Shown: one piece after another, positions 4,833-28,033 of the stretch
How positions within the stretch are numbered: the stretch's first letter is position 1
Layout of the letters: each line of letters opens with the position of its first letter
IMG/VR virus record: IMGVR_UViG_3300010885_004946
Location: 1 to 30,789 of that record
Length of the DNA stretch: 30,789 nt
Direction: 5' to 3' (one strand)
From: a virus
Notes under the pieces: generated by a model
Database searches by the model: none
Seen by the model: the letters and a program-made list of their open reading frames with translations, nothing else
What the model was told of the DNA's origin: nothing
Translations under genes and position numbers: made by a program

Positions 4833-5264
4833 ATGGATGCGAACAAATTAAAAGCGTTAATTGACAAAGTCGCTATCGTCAAAGATATAGGTGTTGATAT
4901 AGGGCCTAATGGAAAAACATTAACTGGCCATGGTAAAGCACGGCCTAAAAAAATCAAACAAATTATAATGAATGAGTTTGGTGAAGAAGAAGAAATTGAA
5001 ATAGAAGAAATTATGTACAATCCAACTTTGGGTTATGCTATTGTTGGATTAAAAGAACGCCATGCTGTGTGCGAATTAGGTTGTGGTGAAGTAGTAACTA
5101 ATCAAAAGATACAAAAGAAATTAATCTTTACACCAGAAAGACATTGGCGTACTTATTGTACTAATTGTAAAAAGACTGTGGGTCCAGATGGAGAATTAAT
5201 CTATGGTCAAATGGCCACACAAAATGCCTTTTCTAAACACTTTTTTAACAAGCAAGATAAATAA
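4833..5264 (+). CDS. Cys-rich putative zinc-binding phage protein (143 aa)
   Basis: The family is not recognised. Four cysteines (about C80, C84, C109, C112, pattern CELGC...CTNC) could bind one zinc ion. The middle contains an acidic stretch (EEEEIEIEEI, about residues 51-60) and the N terminus is a Lys-rich helix. I chose ATG 4833; an in-frame TTG lies three bases upstream, inside the promoter-like element. It is one of only two plus-strand genes, sits alone between two minus-strand blocks, and its stop is only 3 nt before a strongly folded RNA with its own terminator. It may be a regulator or RNA-binding protein; this is speculation from composition and context. Confidence 0.75.
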   Translation: MDANKLKALIDKVAIVKDIGVDIGPNGKTLTGHGKARPKKIKQIIMNEFGEEEEIEIEEIMYNPTLGYAIVGLKERHAVCELGCGEVVTNQKIQKKLIFTPERHWRTYCTNCKKTVGPDGELIYGQMATQNAFSKHFFNKQDK

Positions 5265-5267
5265 TTA

Positions 5268-5388
5268 TGTTAGGGAGATAATGTAATACAAGGCTTTGCA
5301 TTACATGTTCTGACGCCGTCCTAAACGGTAGTTTCTCCGGGGTTACAGCCATTACCCCTTATTTCTCTGTTCTGAGATCTCCCTAACA
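5268..5388 (+). ncRNA. Candidate structured RNA closed by a 12-bp stem
   Basis: TGTTAGGGAGAT (5268-5279) pairs perfectly with ATCTCCCTAACA (5377-5388), enclosing 97 nt. Inside are a hairpin ATGTAAT/ATTACAT (5281-5287/5300-5306) extended by CAA/TTG across one mismatch, a hairpin CCGT/ACGG (5316-5319/5325-5328) with loop CCTAA, and GGGGT/ACCCC (5339-5343/5354-5358). GTTCTGA occurs twice, at 5307-5313 and 5369-5375, in the junction. The fold is a multi-branch junction without an open frame. Two more hairpins follow (5389-5416 and 5420-5437), then a plus-strand terminator. A U-G pair (5390/5415) in the 5389-5416 stem favours the plus strand. It is not a tRNA and matches no RNA family I know. Confidence 0.65.
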
Positions 5389-5438
5389 CTTATTTGTTTC
5401 CTAATAGACAAATAGGCATTAAAATTCTCCAATTTTAG

Positions 5439-5464
5439 ACACCCACCTAGTGGGTGTTTTTTTT
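5439..5464 (+). terminator. Rho-independent terminator after the 143-aa gene and RNA
   Basis: ACACCCAC (5439-5446) pairs with GTGGGTGT (5450-5457) across a three-base loop, followed by a run of T from 5457 to 5464. It ends the plus-strand gene-plus-RNA unit just where the convergent minus-strand gene (stop at 5463-5465) begins. An AT hairpin, TAAAATT/AATTTTA (5420-5437), precedes it. Confidence 0.9.
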
Positions 5465-19874: not shown

Positions 19875-20204
19875 TTATTTTCCTCTCTTTTTATCCCATT
19901 TAAGGGGGTTGGTTGAAACATTCTGTTTAACATCTTTGGTTGGTTGAATTACACGGCCGGGAAAGTTCATACGGCCCGGTTGAGCACTTTGTAATGCTGT
20001 ATAAAGCCTATCATTGTTAGGGCCATAGCTTTCATTGCCTTGTGGAGCCTTGGCTGGCATTTGTTCGCCACGCACACCACGGATTGGTTGGCTAGGATTC
20101 TTTAGGTTAGTTTCGTTAAATGGTTTGCCTACGGGTTTGCCTGCTGTGCCTTGCTTACCATAATTGAACTTTGGTGCTGAATTAACTTGCGGTTTCATCG
20201 CCAT
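19875..20204 (-). CDS. Disordered basic protein of unknown function (109 aa)
   Basis: Rich in Pro, Gly, Asn, Lys and Gln with no predicted secondary structure; it ends in a basic tail (NPLKWDKKRGK). The start overlaps the end of the Dps-like gene by 23 bases, using GGAGATGGAA as Shine-Dalgarno site; ATG 20198 is a second possible start. It lies between the Dps-like and scaffold genes, so it may be a minor head protein or a DNA- or scaffold-binding factor. No family recognised. Confidence 0.7.
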   Translation of the reverse strand: MAMKPQVNSAPKFNYGKQGTAGKPVGKPFNETNLKNPSQPIRGVRGEQMPAKAPQGNESYGPNNDRLYTALQSAQPGRMNFPGRVIQPTKDVKQNVSTNPLKWDKKRGK

Positions 20205-20709
20205 TTTCCATCTCCAAAGGTTCTATATCTGTGCCAGTAAGGTCACTTTGTTCACCAAGGATAGCATCTACCATCCATTGTGTCTTGCGGTGTTCGTTGA
20301 TGCGATCGCCCAAGAAGTTCTGTAGGCCGTATTCACCTATGCATCCAGCTAGGTAAGCGGCATCTTGTAAAGTATTAACAAGAATATCAAGGTCACTATC
20401 GATTGATTGAAAAATAACCATTGGATCTGTAATAGATTCAGGAGGATCCTCAAGTTGGGTGCCATTCATAATATCGCGGTAGTCTCCTTTTGGGAAAACA
20501 CCTAATCGGCGCAGTTGTTCTGCATAGTCGTCAATAGCTTCTTGAGCATCTTCGTATATGTGCTCTAACATCTTGTGATATTGAGGAAAGTCCTTGCCCA
20601 TCACAGTCCAATGGAAATTGTGCGTCTTTAGGTAATAGGTAAAGTTATTACCAAAGGCAGTATAGAGTAAATCTATTGTTTGTTGTACTTGTTTAGGATC
20701 TATCTTCAT
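20182..20709 (-). CDS. Dps/ferritin-like iron-binding protein (175 aa)
   Basis: The first 150 residues match the Dps four-helix bundle. The residues of the between-subunit ferroxidase centre are present at the right spacing: H33 in NFHW, H45, E49 (Asp in many Dps proteins), D60 and E64. Dps proteins form 12-subunit shells that oxidise and store iron and can protect DNA from oxidative damage. The C-terminal 25 residues are an acidic tail, not the Lys-rich DNA-binding tail of E. coli Dps. Its ATG overlaps the portal stop (ATGA), so it is coexpressed with packaging and head genes. Whether it is in the virion or acts in the cell is open. Confidence 0.9.
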   Translation of the reverse strand: MKIDPKQVQQTIDLLYTAFGNNFTYYLKTHNFHWTVMGKDFPQYHKMLEHIYEDAQEAIDDYAEQLRRLGVFPKGDYRDIMNGTQLEDPPESITDPMVIFQSIDSDLDILVNTLQDAAYLAGCIGEYGLQNFLGDRINEHRKTQWMVDAILGEQSDLTGTDIEPLEMENGDETAS

Positions 20710-24303: not shown

Positions 24304-24309
24304 TATTTA
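24304..24309 (-). promoter_or_regulatory. TAAATA promoter-like element before terS
   Basis: TAAATA is followed by CAAG and then the terS ATG (four-base spacing), in the 45-base gap between genes. No Shine-Dalgarno sequence is visible. Confidence 0.45.
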
Positions 24310-27086: not shown

Positions 27087-27090
27087 TGAG

Positions 27091-27118
27091 TACTTATAAA
27101 GAGCGAATGCTTCGCTCT
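27091..27118 (-). promoter_or_regulatory. Hairpin plus TATAAGTA element before the endonuclease VII-like gene
   Basis: The minus strand has AGAGCGAA-GCA-TTCGCTCT (27118-27100), followed immediately by TTATAAGTACTCA and the ATG. TATAAGTA (27098-27091) differs by one base from TATAAATA, and the spacing to ATG is four bases. The hairpin may end upstream transcription, repeating the terminator-then-promoter order seen elsewhere. Confidence 0.5.
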
Positions 27119-27191
27119 AACTTTCGCTTGTCGCTCAAGTTATTTTCTTTTTATTAATTGTTTTAATATTATGTAGGGCAACACTACAGTC

Positions 27192-27217
27192 AGACGGAAC
27201 CGTTTAAGGTTCCGTCT
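27192..27217. terminator. Strong 10-bp hairpin in the long intergenic region
   Basis: AGACGGAACC (27192-27201) pairs perfectly with GGTTCCGTCT (27208-27217) across GTTTAA. On the plus strand it is followed by only TTG, on the minus strand by no T-run, so it may be an RNA end structure or protein site as well as a weak terminator. Confidence 0.5.
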
Positions 27218-27228
27218 TTGTCATTATG

Positions 27229-27540
27229 TGAGGGTGTCACAGCCGAGACATTGGAAATAGGTATTTTACTGTTGCTAATGGGTGCTAATCTTGCCCAACC
27301 TACATCGCTTCACTTTCGTGCCCAGACCGCGTTCCTAGTTGTCTGAAGTTTTATAGCCAGTGTTCCGTACGCTAACATTCGTACTATATCAACTTACAGC
27401 CAGTGGGCTTCCATCAATATGTTGCGTGTTCCAGCTATCACCCTGGATTTTTCCACAGCTCTATTCGCGATCCGGCGAGCTAACCTTATGTGTTAGATGA
27501 TTTGCCTGTGTATTTGCCATGTTTGCCTAAATGTATTCTC
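27229..27540 (-). ncRNA. Candidate structured RNA made of serial hairpins
   Basis: About 310 bases without a credible open frame contain a string of short perfect stems: TGTC/GACA (27235/27247), TGGG/CCCA (27279/27294), CAGAC/GTCTG (27323/27341), GTACG/CGTAC (27367/27380), AGCC/GGCT (27398/27406), CCAG/CTGG (27431/27443), AGCTC/GAGCT (27457/27477) and CTAAC/GTTAG (27480/27492). On the minus strand CACTGGCT occurs twice, on both sides of the GTACG hairpin. TATAAATA (27548-27555) is placed to start a minus-strand transcript about here. No tRNA, tmRNA, RNase P or group I core is recognised. It could instead be an origin. Confidence 0.45.
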
Positions 27541-27570
27541 TACAATGTATTTATATTTTATATTAAAAAA
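27449..27570. other. Origin-like cluster: DnaA-box match, short iterons, AT-rich segment
   Basis: TTTTCCACA (27449-27457) fits the DnaA box TTWTNCACA. ATTTGCC occurs at 27500-27506 and 27512-27518, and GTTTGCC at 27521-27527. An almost pure A/T segment follows (27546-27570). The arrangement resembles a small replication origin, but the motifs are short and overlap the candidate RNA and promoter. Confidence 0.3.
27548..27555 (-). promoter_or_regulatory. TATAAATA element facing the candidate RNA
   Basis: An exact TATAAATA followed by CA, nine bases after the T-run of the 27565-27586 terminator. No gene starts within the next 460 bases, so a transcript from here would be non-coding up to the endonuclease VII-like gene. 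Confidence 0.6.
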
Positions 27571-27586: not shown

Positions 27587-27639
27587 TTTTGAAGGAATGG
27601 ATGAGGGGATAGATGCTCGTCTGCCAATGCGTTGATGCC

Positions 27640-27691
27640 TAGTATGGAAACGGACAAAACATACTAATTCATCCTGCCCTCGCGGTCCGTT
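27640..27691 (-). ncRNA. H-type pseudoknot in the 3' region of the adhesin operon
   Basis: TAGTATG (27640-27646) pairs with CATACTA (27660-27666), 7 bp. In the 13-base loop, AACGGAC (27649-27655) is a perfect complement of GTCCGTT (27685-27691) outside, giving two interlocked 7-bp helices. GGATGA (27598) and TCATCC (27670) could close a longer stem around it. It begins six bases after the stop of the 111-aa gene and lies before the terminator, so on the minus strand it would be a structured 3' UTR. The function is unknown. Confidence 0.6.
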
Positions 27692-27697
27692 AACCTC

Positions 27698-28033
27698 TTA
27701 CGCAGAACGATTCTTTACACGAACTCTAAAATTTCTGCGATCAATCAAGCCATTACTTGTAGTAACTGTACATGTAACTGTATAGGTACGCTCTTTTTGG
27801 CCGCCTGATAATTTGATATAAGTCTGTGTACCACCACCTGCAATGCCACTTTGAACATTGATAATTGGTTGTGGATCGTTGGCACGAACTTGTAATTCAT
27901 AAACAGCATTGCCAATTGTATCACCTGTGGTCAACCATTGGCTCCAATCAAATGTATAAGTTAGTACTGCTACTGGGTCTTTATCAATGGTTAATAATTC
28001 ATTGATAATTTGAAATCCTGTTGATGCTGTCAT
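27698..28033 (-). CDS. Small Ig-like structural protein, fibre-tail adaptor-like (111 aa)
   Basis: The pattern KDPVAVLTYTFDWSQWLTTGDTI near the start, then QTYIKLSGGQKERTYTVTCTVTTSNGLIDRRNFRVRV at the end, is that of small beta-sandwich phage proteins often annotated as fibre-tail adaptors (a D-W-S-xW-L..GDTI start and a GR.d.R.f.v.V end). They are thought to join fibres to the tail. It is the last gene of the adhesin operon; AAAGGATAA lies upstream of the ATG. The call is from recall of the family pattern. Confidence 0.75.
   Translation of the reverse strand: MTASTGFQIINELLTIDKDPVAVLTYTFDWSQWLTTGDTIGNAVYELQVRANDPQPIINVQSGIAGGGTQTYIKLSGGQKERTYTVTCTVTTSNGLIDRRNFRVRVKNRSA

Follow-up and report, generated by a model that had tools for sequence, protein, structure and literature searches.

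A structured small RNA linked to a cysteine-rich protein gene in tailed phages of about 28 to 31 kb

A group of ~28–31-kb tailed phages, mostly from fresh water, carries a new family of small RNA that travels with the gene for a small cysteine-rich protein, here called P143. The family is described from the window, the whole 30,789-nucleotide stretch of viral DNA that was analysed (IMG/VR record IMGVR_UViG_3300010885_004946), and from 20 further sequence variants found in IMG/VR phages. Sequence comparison among these variants yields the RNA's structure and covariation, its strand, the positions of its promoter and terminator, and its obligate linkage to P143. On this basis we propose that a new RNA, transcribed independently and late in infection, forms with P143 a ribonucleoprotein (RNP) acting on translation, a proposal for and against which we find the balance about even. 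The result is a well-supported, previously uncatalogued structured RNA of uncultured lake phages, with an obligate protein partner outside known families.

In the window the RNA is a strongly folded, multi-branch molecule closed on itself (5269–5387, plus strand; z about −5 to −6). The segment 5250–5480 folds at −69.9 kcal/mol versus −43.0 ± 4.5 for dinucleotide shuffles (z = −5.97), none of 200 shuffles folding as well, and the core by itself gives z = −4.9. Its parts (Table 1) bear out the initial annotation, made from the letters of the window, which had described a 12-bp stem around three hairpins, with a further two hairpins and then a terminator behind it. The two extra hairpins, one A+T-rich (5389–5416) and one with a UUCUCC loop (~5420–5438), do exist but are clade-specific and lie outside the conserved core. 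A GTTCTGA repeat, likewise pointed out at first, is present at 5307–5313 and 5369–5375 but does not belong to what is conserved, the first copy being kept in the window's clade only and the second in the window and L040 only. The conserved heart of the molecule consists instead of P1, of UACAGCCAUU in the loop of P4 and of CU-rich single strands, none of which had been singled out.

Table 1. Features of the RNA–P143 cassette in the window
Feature	Position	Strand	Remarks
TAAATA promoter element of P143 gene	4823–4828	+	4 nt before ATG; predicted leaderless mRNA
P143, 143-aa protein	4833–5264	+	C80-x3-C84, C109-x2-C112, conserved HW; basic, putative zinc-ribbon-like C-terminal domain
ATAAATAA, putative late promoter of RNA	5257–5264	+	overlaps P143 stop codon; invariant in 21/21 variants
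12-bp closing stem	5268–5279, 5377–5388		TGTTAGGGAGAT pairs with ATCTCCCTAACA
Conserved RNA core	5269–5387	+	predicted +1 = G5269
P1, 5' strand	5269–5279	+	partner 5377–5387; extra pair T5268–A5388; 5 compensatory pairs, 11 distinct rows
P2 hairpin	5281–5306	+	apical part with UACAAGGCU = class I loop; CU-rich class II loops in other clades
GTTCTGA, P2/P3 junction	5307–5313	+	kept in window's clade only
P3 hairpin	5312–5333	+	stem variable; missing from shortest members
UCUCC, P3/P4 junction	5334–5338	+	unpaired; anti-Shine-Dalgarno-like
P4 hairpin	5339–5358	+	loop 5344–5353 = UACAGCCAUU; core GCCAU in 20/21 variants
UUCUCUG, 3' of P4	5363–5369	+	unpaired in most members
P1, 3' strand	5377–5387	+	from P1 pair counting
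Two clade-specific hairpins	5389–5438	+	second with CUCC loop (AAAAUUCUCCAAUUUU), also in L229 and L041
Intrinsic terminator of RNA	5437–5464	+	hairpin 5437–5459, then T-run

The element does not code, as had been noted, because its length runs from 71 to 134 nt in relatives and a reading frame is nowhere kept. Fold energy by itself leaves the strand undecided, because the minus strand of the window reaches a comparable fold (−41.0 versus −39.5). This near-equality, together with the Shine-Dalgarno (SD)-like AGAGAA that precedes ATGGCTGTA in the window, could be taken to favour an element acting as DNA (a cruciform, or a site of recombination or packaging) or else something on the minus strand, for instance a tiny ORF that starts ATGGCTGTA. 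We consider this extremely improbable: G–U pairs occur in most plus-strand folds, for example a U–G pair in P1 of L041, promoter and terminator both point along the plus strand, the cassette is found in either orientation relative to the late genes, and the ORF is rejected since the minus-strand frames of relatives end at differing short lengths. The original assignment to the plus strand is thus supported by the orientation of promoter and terminator and by the U–G pairs in homologues.

Homologues were reached by several independent routes. A 145-aa tail-type neighbour (phrog_240) led to IMG/VR relatives, the closest of which have P143 followed by the RNA with re-coded stems; the RNA loop pattern led to L119 and L123, a P143 profile to L201 and L204, and a covariance model combined with the P143 profile across 50 records to G011 and G008. 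G023 is the weakest P143 profile match (E = 5e-6), yet the RNA is present there. A pattern of P1 plus loop, using no protein information, recovered 21 contigs, six of them new, and in each of the six the RNA lies behind P143 or its C-terminal part. The first RNA pattern, GTTCTGANNNCGTCCNNNNCGG, gave 26 matches and was dropped because the window's relatives do not conserve those letters. Scanning genomes with the loop pattern gave 57 matches, roughly the chance level, none with a P1 stem, and neither tblastn of P143 against phage records nor a single-protein search of IMG/VR returned a match. The set analysed comprises 21 variants (19 without near-copies) from about 30 contigs, mostly of freshwater phages. 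Fold z-scores lie between −3.1 and −5.9 in 20 of the 21; L045, the most distant RNA, has no GCCAU and folds weakly (z = −1.6).

Most variants have GTTAGGGAGA/TCTCCCTAAC as P1. The helix is re-coded in L119 (GTTAGGCAGG/CCTGCCTAAC), L201 (GTTAGGGAAGG/CCTTCCCTAAC), L204 (GTTAGAGAGG/CCTCTCTAAC), L041 (GTTAGAGAGA/TCTCTCTGAC, which includes the U–G pair), L225 (GTTAGTAAG/CTTACTAAC), L221 (GTAGGGGAG/CTCCCCTAC), L227 (GTAGCGGAG/CTCCGCTAC) and L045 (GTGCTAGG/CCTAGCAC). Counted over 11 distinct rows, P1 is 93% paired, with double-sided changes in 5 of its 11 pairs and a covariation score of 0.291 versus 0.114 when shuffled (0/500 shuffles). P4 is 91% paired, with double-sided changes in all five pairs and a score of 0.836 versus 0.269 (0/500), in a count that leaves out L204 and L225, where P4 is shifted. 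Register-shifted controls collapse for both helices; sliding P1 out of register leaves about half of it paired, or less. Helix segments were cut by hand for these counts because the variable stems defeat alignment of whole sequences; those of P2 and P3 are wholly re-coded among homologues. The initial annotation had named a lack of compensatory changes or of conservation as what would count against it, an objection that falls away because P1 and P4 covary beyond shuffles.

The P4 loop is near-invariant, reading UACAGCCAUU, UACUGCCAUU or UAUUGCCAUU, with L204 and L225 retaining GCCAU only. In statistics that ignore shared ancestry, 18 of the 19 non-redundant RNAs leave GCCAU unpaired, versus 0.5 expected from shuffles, and an unpaired UCUC, CUCC or UCCU occurs in all 19 versus 11.2 in shuffles. 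P2 loops fall into two classes, UACAAGGCU and CU-rich. The CU-rich loops (UCUCC/UCUCU) are complementary to the SD sequence and GCCAU to an AUGGC start; because conserved single strands thus complement sequences of translation initiation, we favour control of translation as the RNA's putative activity.

P143 is represented by 24 distinct sequences, 101–170 aa long where complete and 26–60% identical among carriers. Residues C80, C84, C109, C112 and W105 are invariant and H104 nearly so. The C-terminal domain is modelled with confidence as β strands that end in a helix (pLDDT averages 78 and is ~90 over residues 70–140), and it is basic in 19 of 19 members (pI 8.4–10.1). We regard it as zinc-ribbon-like, with putative zinc binding. 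Searches of the Pfam, PHROG, NCBIfam and PDB families found no relative, and BFVD yielded proteins of uncultured phages only (best identity 34%). A PDB sequence search proposed cytochrome c2 and sirtuin-like proteins, which were rejected because they share the Cys motifs only (E ≥ 0.01). The model gave PDB fold matches at E > 0.9 and resembled no solved fold convincingly, RNA-binding folds included; the candidates from VIA, profilin (Z 4.1, the best), the zinc region of MqsA (2.6) and a dsRBD (~2.4), were too weak to be kept.

In every carrier with upstream DNA the RNA lies directly behind a P143 homologue, and the flanking genes vary. Across 50 phage records the strong matches of the RNA model coincide with P143 carriers, and the distant P143 homologues of G008, G011 and G023 have the RNA behind them in re-coded form. 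Because the pair persists while its neighbourhood takes at least four forms, and does so in both orientations relative to the late genes, we argue that it is one unit, as in the two-part cassette of RNA and 143-aa Cys-rich gene originally proposed. Some related phages carry the tail-type neighbour gene but not the RNA. Since RNA and P143 always travel together, they probably work as a pair. The linkage, the basic zinc-type domain and the closed RNA together suggest that the RNA core and P143 likely form an RNP. The suggestion that the RNA is the partner of the protein has accordingly gained strict co-occurrence, from which physical binding is a further step that we infer.

How the RNA is produced is indicated by the motif ATAAATAA, whose end lies 4 nt ahead of the first base of P1 (that of TAAATA 5 nt ahead) in all 21 variants. 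Most others resemble the window in that the motif overlaps the P143 stop codon; L204, whose stop codon is ~40 nt further upstream, keeps the motif at the usual distance from P1, which ties ATAAATAA to the RNA. A plus-strand terminator follows within 20–75 nt of P1 in nearly all homologues, L040 having no clear one, and a search for σ70 promoters ahead of the RNA found none. The RNA is thus probably a free transcript of ~130–195 nt with its own promoter and a predicted start and end; of the origins first considered, a free small RNA is the one that this fixed distance supports, as a prediction. Alternatively, the RNA would never be free, forming a cis-acting 3' UTR element that stabilizes the P143 mRNA or lets P143 autoregulate its own transcript. 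Every P143 has an RNA behind it, beginning 5–40 nt after the stop codon on the same strand with a common terminator, and read-through from the P143 promoter would take in the RNA, as for a processed 3' UTR; phage zinc proteins that control the mRNAs they bind also exist (Mu Com). This alternative is nevertheless unlikely, if the strongest of those considered, since a separate ATAAATAA is fixed relative to P1 rather than to the stop codon, and an element controlling decay needs no near-invariant loops across phages whose P143 proteins are only 26–60% identical.

The putative promoter of this predicted transcript resembles those of T4 late genes (TATAAATA), in which an 8-bp TATA box precedes the start by about one turn of the helix and a −35 element is absent (PMC2988020). 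Here too a TATA-type box is found, ATAAATA ending 5 nt before the predicted +1, with no −35 element; position −13 varies. Unlike in T4, the phage is of 30 kb, leaderless ORFs often follow the motif, and gp55, gp33 and gp45 are not recognized in the window, where a diverged one could be missed; no late sigma factor was recognized among the window proteins either. A fixed T4-late-like promoter and a terminator flank the RNA, which suggests a free and probably late transcript, its timing being deduced from the promoter type. The same hexamer precedes genes: nearly every P143 gene has TAAATA 4–5 nt ahead of its ATG (the motif is missing in L225 and spaced differently in L045), and in 12 related contigs 42 of 184 TAAATA occur 3–5 nt before an ATG versus ~5% for permuted hexamers, the genes served including the terminase small subunit and a glycosyltransferase. 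In the window, TAAATA-4 nt-ATG occurs at 24309 (−), 25656 (+) and 4823 (+), ahead of the terminase small subunit, glycosyltransferase and P143 genes, and likewise in relatives; the glycosyltransferase start is probably 25666 rather than 25648, and all three mRNAs are predicted to be leaderless. Intergenic TAAATA motifs in the window point toward gene starts on their own strand. Nine are found versus 3.5 (maximum 11) in a simple shuffle of intergenic DNA, and because this excess is modest we base the promoter assignment on where the motif lies and how well it is kept.

In the mechanism that we propose, the RNA would be transcribed alone, probably late, from its T4-late-like TAAATA promoter, reaching from the first base of P1 to the terminator. 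P1 would hold the two ends of the molecule to each other and support P2, P3 and P4. P143, co-inherited with the RNA, would be made as a leaderless message from its own TAAATA promoter and would bind the RNA core through the basic zinc-ribbon-like domain, forming an RNP in which CU-rich strands and GCCAU loop would be exposed to the initiation regions of target mRNAs (SD GGAGA, start AUGGC). Were the pair to control translation in this way, the type of message, leaderless or SD-led, would decide which messages are translated, and leaderless phage messages might, speculatively, escape the control. An extension that we find improbable sees here a new class of phage RNP, made of a dedicated late RNA and a dedicated zinc-ribbon-like protein that are co-inherited, that blocks SD-led translation through anti-SD and anti-AUG loops while leaderless phage messages escape, and that may serve a replication-gene-poor, helper-dependent tailed element with T4-type late promoters. 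Predictions exist for the start site, the partner and the invariant nucleotides, so the function can be tested directly in vitro.

The same loops could also act without P143: a trans-acting antisense RNA would pair its P4 loop (anti-AUGGC) and the flanking UUCUCU/UCUCC (anti-SD) with translation starts in mRNAs of the host, the phage or a helper phage, P143 being a linked but separate gene. The order and spacing of the loop and the 3' CU motif would let them complement an SD-(about 8 nt)-AUGGC sequence, the unpaired CU motifs exceed shuffles, and in L201, L221 and L227 the next downstream ATGGC, read by eye, shares an 8-nt match with the variant loop. In the other members, however, downstream loop matches are missing or span 6 nt, the ATG of L221 opens a three-codon frame only, and many genes start with AUGGC. 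Among the window's genes, none combines an AUGGCUG start with a matching SD, and its genome holds no convincing target of the P4 loop. As the strict linkage to P143 would also go unexplained, we regard an RNA acting without the protein as doubtful, and prefer the RNP.

The RNA belongs to none of the known systems tested. As the initial annotation had proposed, it was compared with Rfam 15, where it matches no family at gathering thresholds; the best score (21.9 bits versus a threshold of 42), for the PsrR1 sRNA, was taken as chance and aligns with 5383–5461, the clade-specific 3' tail outside the conserved core. The Staphylococcus RNAs RsaA and RsaE are structured sRNAs with C-rich (UCCC-type) loops complementary to the SD sequence. 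The present RNA is likewise structured and shows CU/C-rich loops of this complementarity, the unpaired motif counted above in all 19 RNAs (11.2 in shuffles, shared ancestry ignored); unlike them, it is phage-borne, adjoins a dedicated protein gene and has a long terminal closing stem and a near-invariant GCCAU loop. With type III toxin–antitoxin systems (ToxIN) it shares the two-part unit of small protein gene and structured RNA. Unlike in ToxIN, the RNA contains no tandem repeats and comes after the gene, not before it; P143 matches no toxin family in Pfam or NCBIfam, PADLOC gave one stray match (E 0.0055), and the fold search was uninformative. GOLLD, ROOL and other ornate phage-associated RNAs are also structured non-coding RNAs known in lake metagenomes and phages, but they are several hundred nucleotides long and of other structure, whereas this RNA has about 120 nt and a cognate protein gene. 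No reverse transcriptase, as a retron would have, was found among the window proteins. By its loops the RNA would appear to work most like the C-rich-loop anti-SD sRNAs, its shape recalling φ29 pRNA and its layout RNA–protein two-part systems.

The likeness to φ29 pRNA, a small phage RNA whose ends are closed by a stem and whose hairpin loops can pair mutually, raises the prospect of an RNA with a structural or packaging role in the virion, whose loops could kiss (P2 GGCU with P4 AGCC; P3 AUGGC with P4 GCCAU). A late-type promoter, placement among virion genes and loop complementarity in many members would fit. By inspection, however, the GGC partner for GCC is missing in L028, L044, L201, L229 and L225, so that internal loop–loop pairing is not universal and is not kept by covariation, the Rfam Phage_pRNA covariance model found no match, relatives sharing the tail-type gene do without the RNA, and pRNA is part of a different packaging machine in another type of phage. 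We judge a packaging role very unlikely, and translation control by the RNA–P143 pair remains the preferred reading.

A 123-bp direct repeat at the ends of the window identifies it as a complete genome of 30,666 bp. G004, G005 and G008 are also closed, at 28–29 kb (repeats of 99, 87 and 127 bp), and DSL-LC06 (29.8 kb, circular) looks similar to the window genome. Recognized genes of the window encode virion, packaging and fibre proteins, a glycosyltransferase, a Dps-like protein and endonuclease VII; no polymerase, helicase, primase or sigma gene was recognized among its proteins, and ten more proteins of G004, G005 and G008 that have no window homologues include no recognized replication, polymerase or sigma gene either. 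The lack of recognized replication and polymerase genes together with the T4-type promoters raises the question of helper dependence, which is possible for this phage group. The Dps/ferritin-like protein (PF00210, E 2.3e-20; PHROG 'DNA binding protein') is encoded at 20182–20709 (−) in the head gene cluster.

Further elements were noticed outside the cassette. Downstream of it, CCGTTCTGATGTGTGACGG recurs in L204 and L123 and GGGCCGAATGTNATACC in L204 and L045, neither being present in the window. At 27087–27560 (−), ~450 nt behind a TAAATA (27553, −) contain no long ORF and finish in a terminal GACGGAACC..GGTTCCGTC hairpin, possibly a further non-coding transcript. The region 27597–27705 (−) scores 50.7 bits (threshold 60; E 2.2e-7) with Rfam RF02496, Atu_At1, an sRNA of Rhizobiales, and is 84–94% conserved in several phages of the window's clade; this candidate second small RNA hints at an alphaproteobacterial host.
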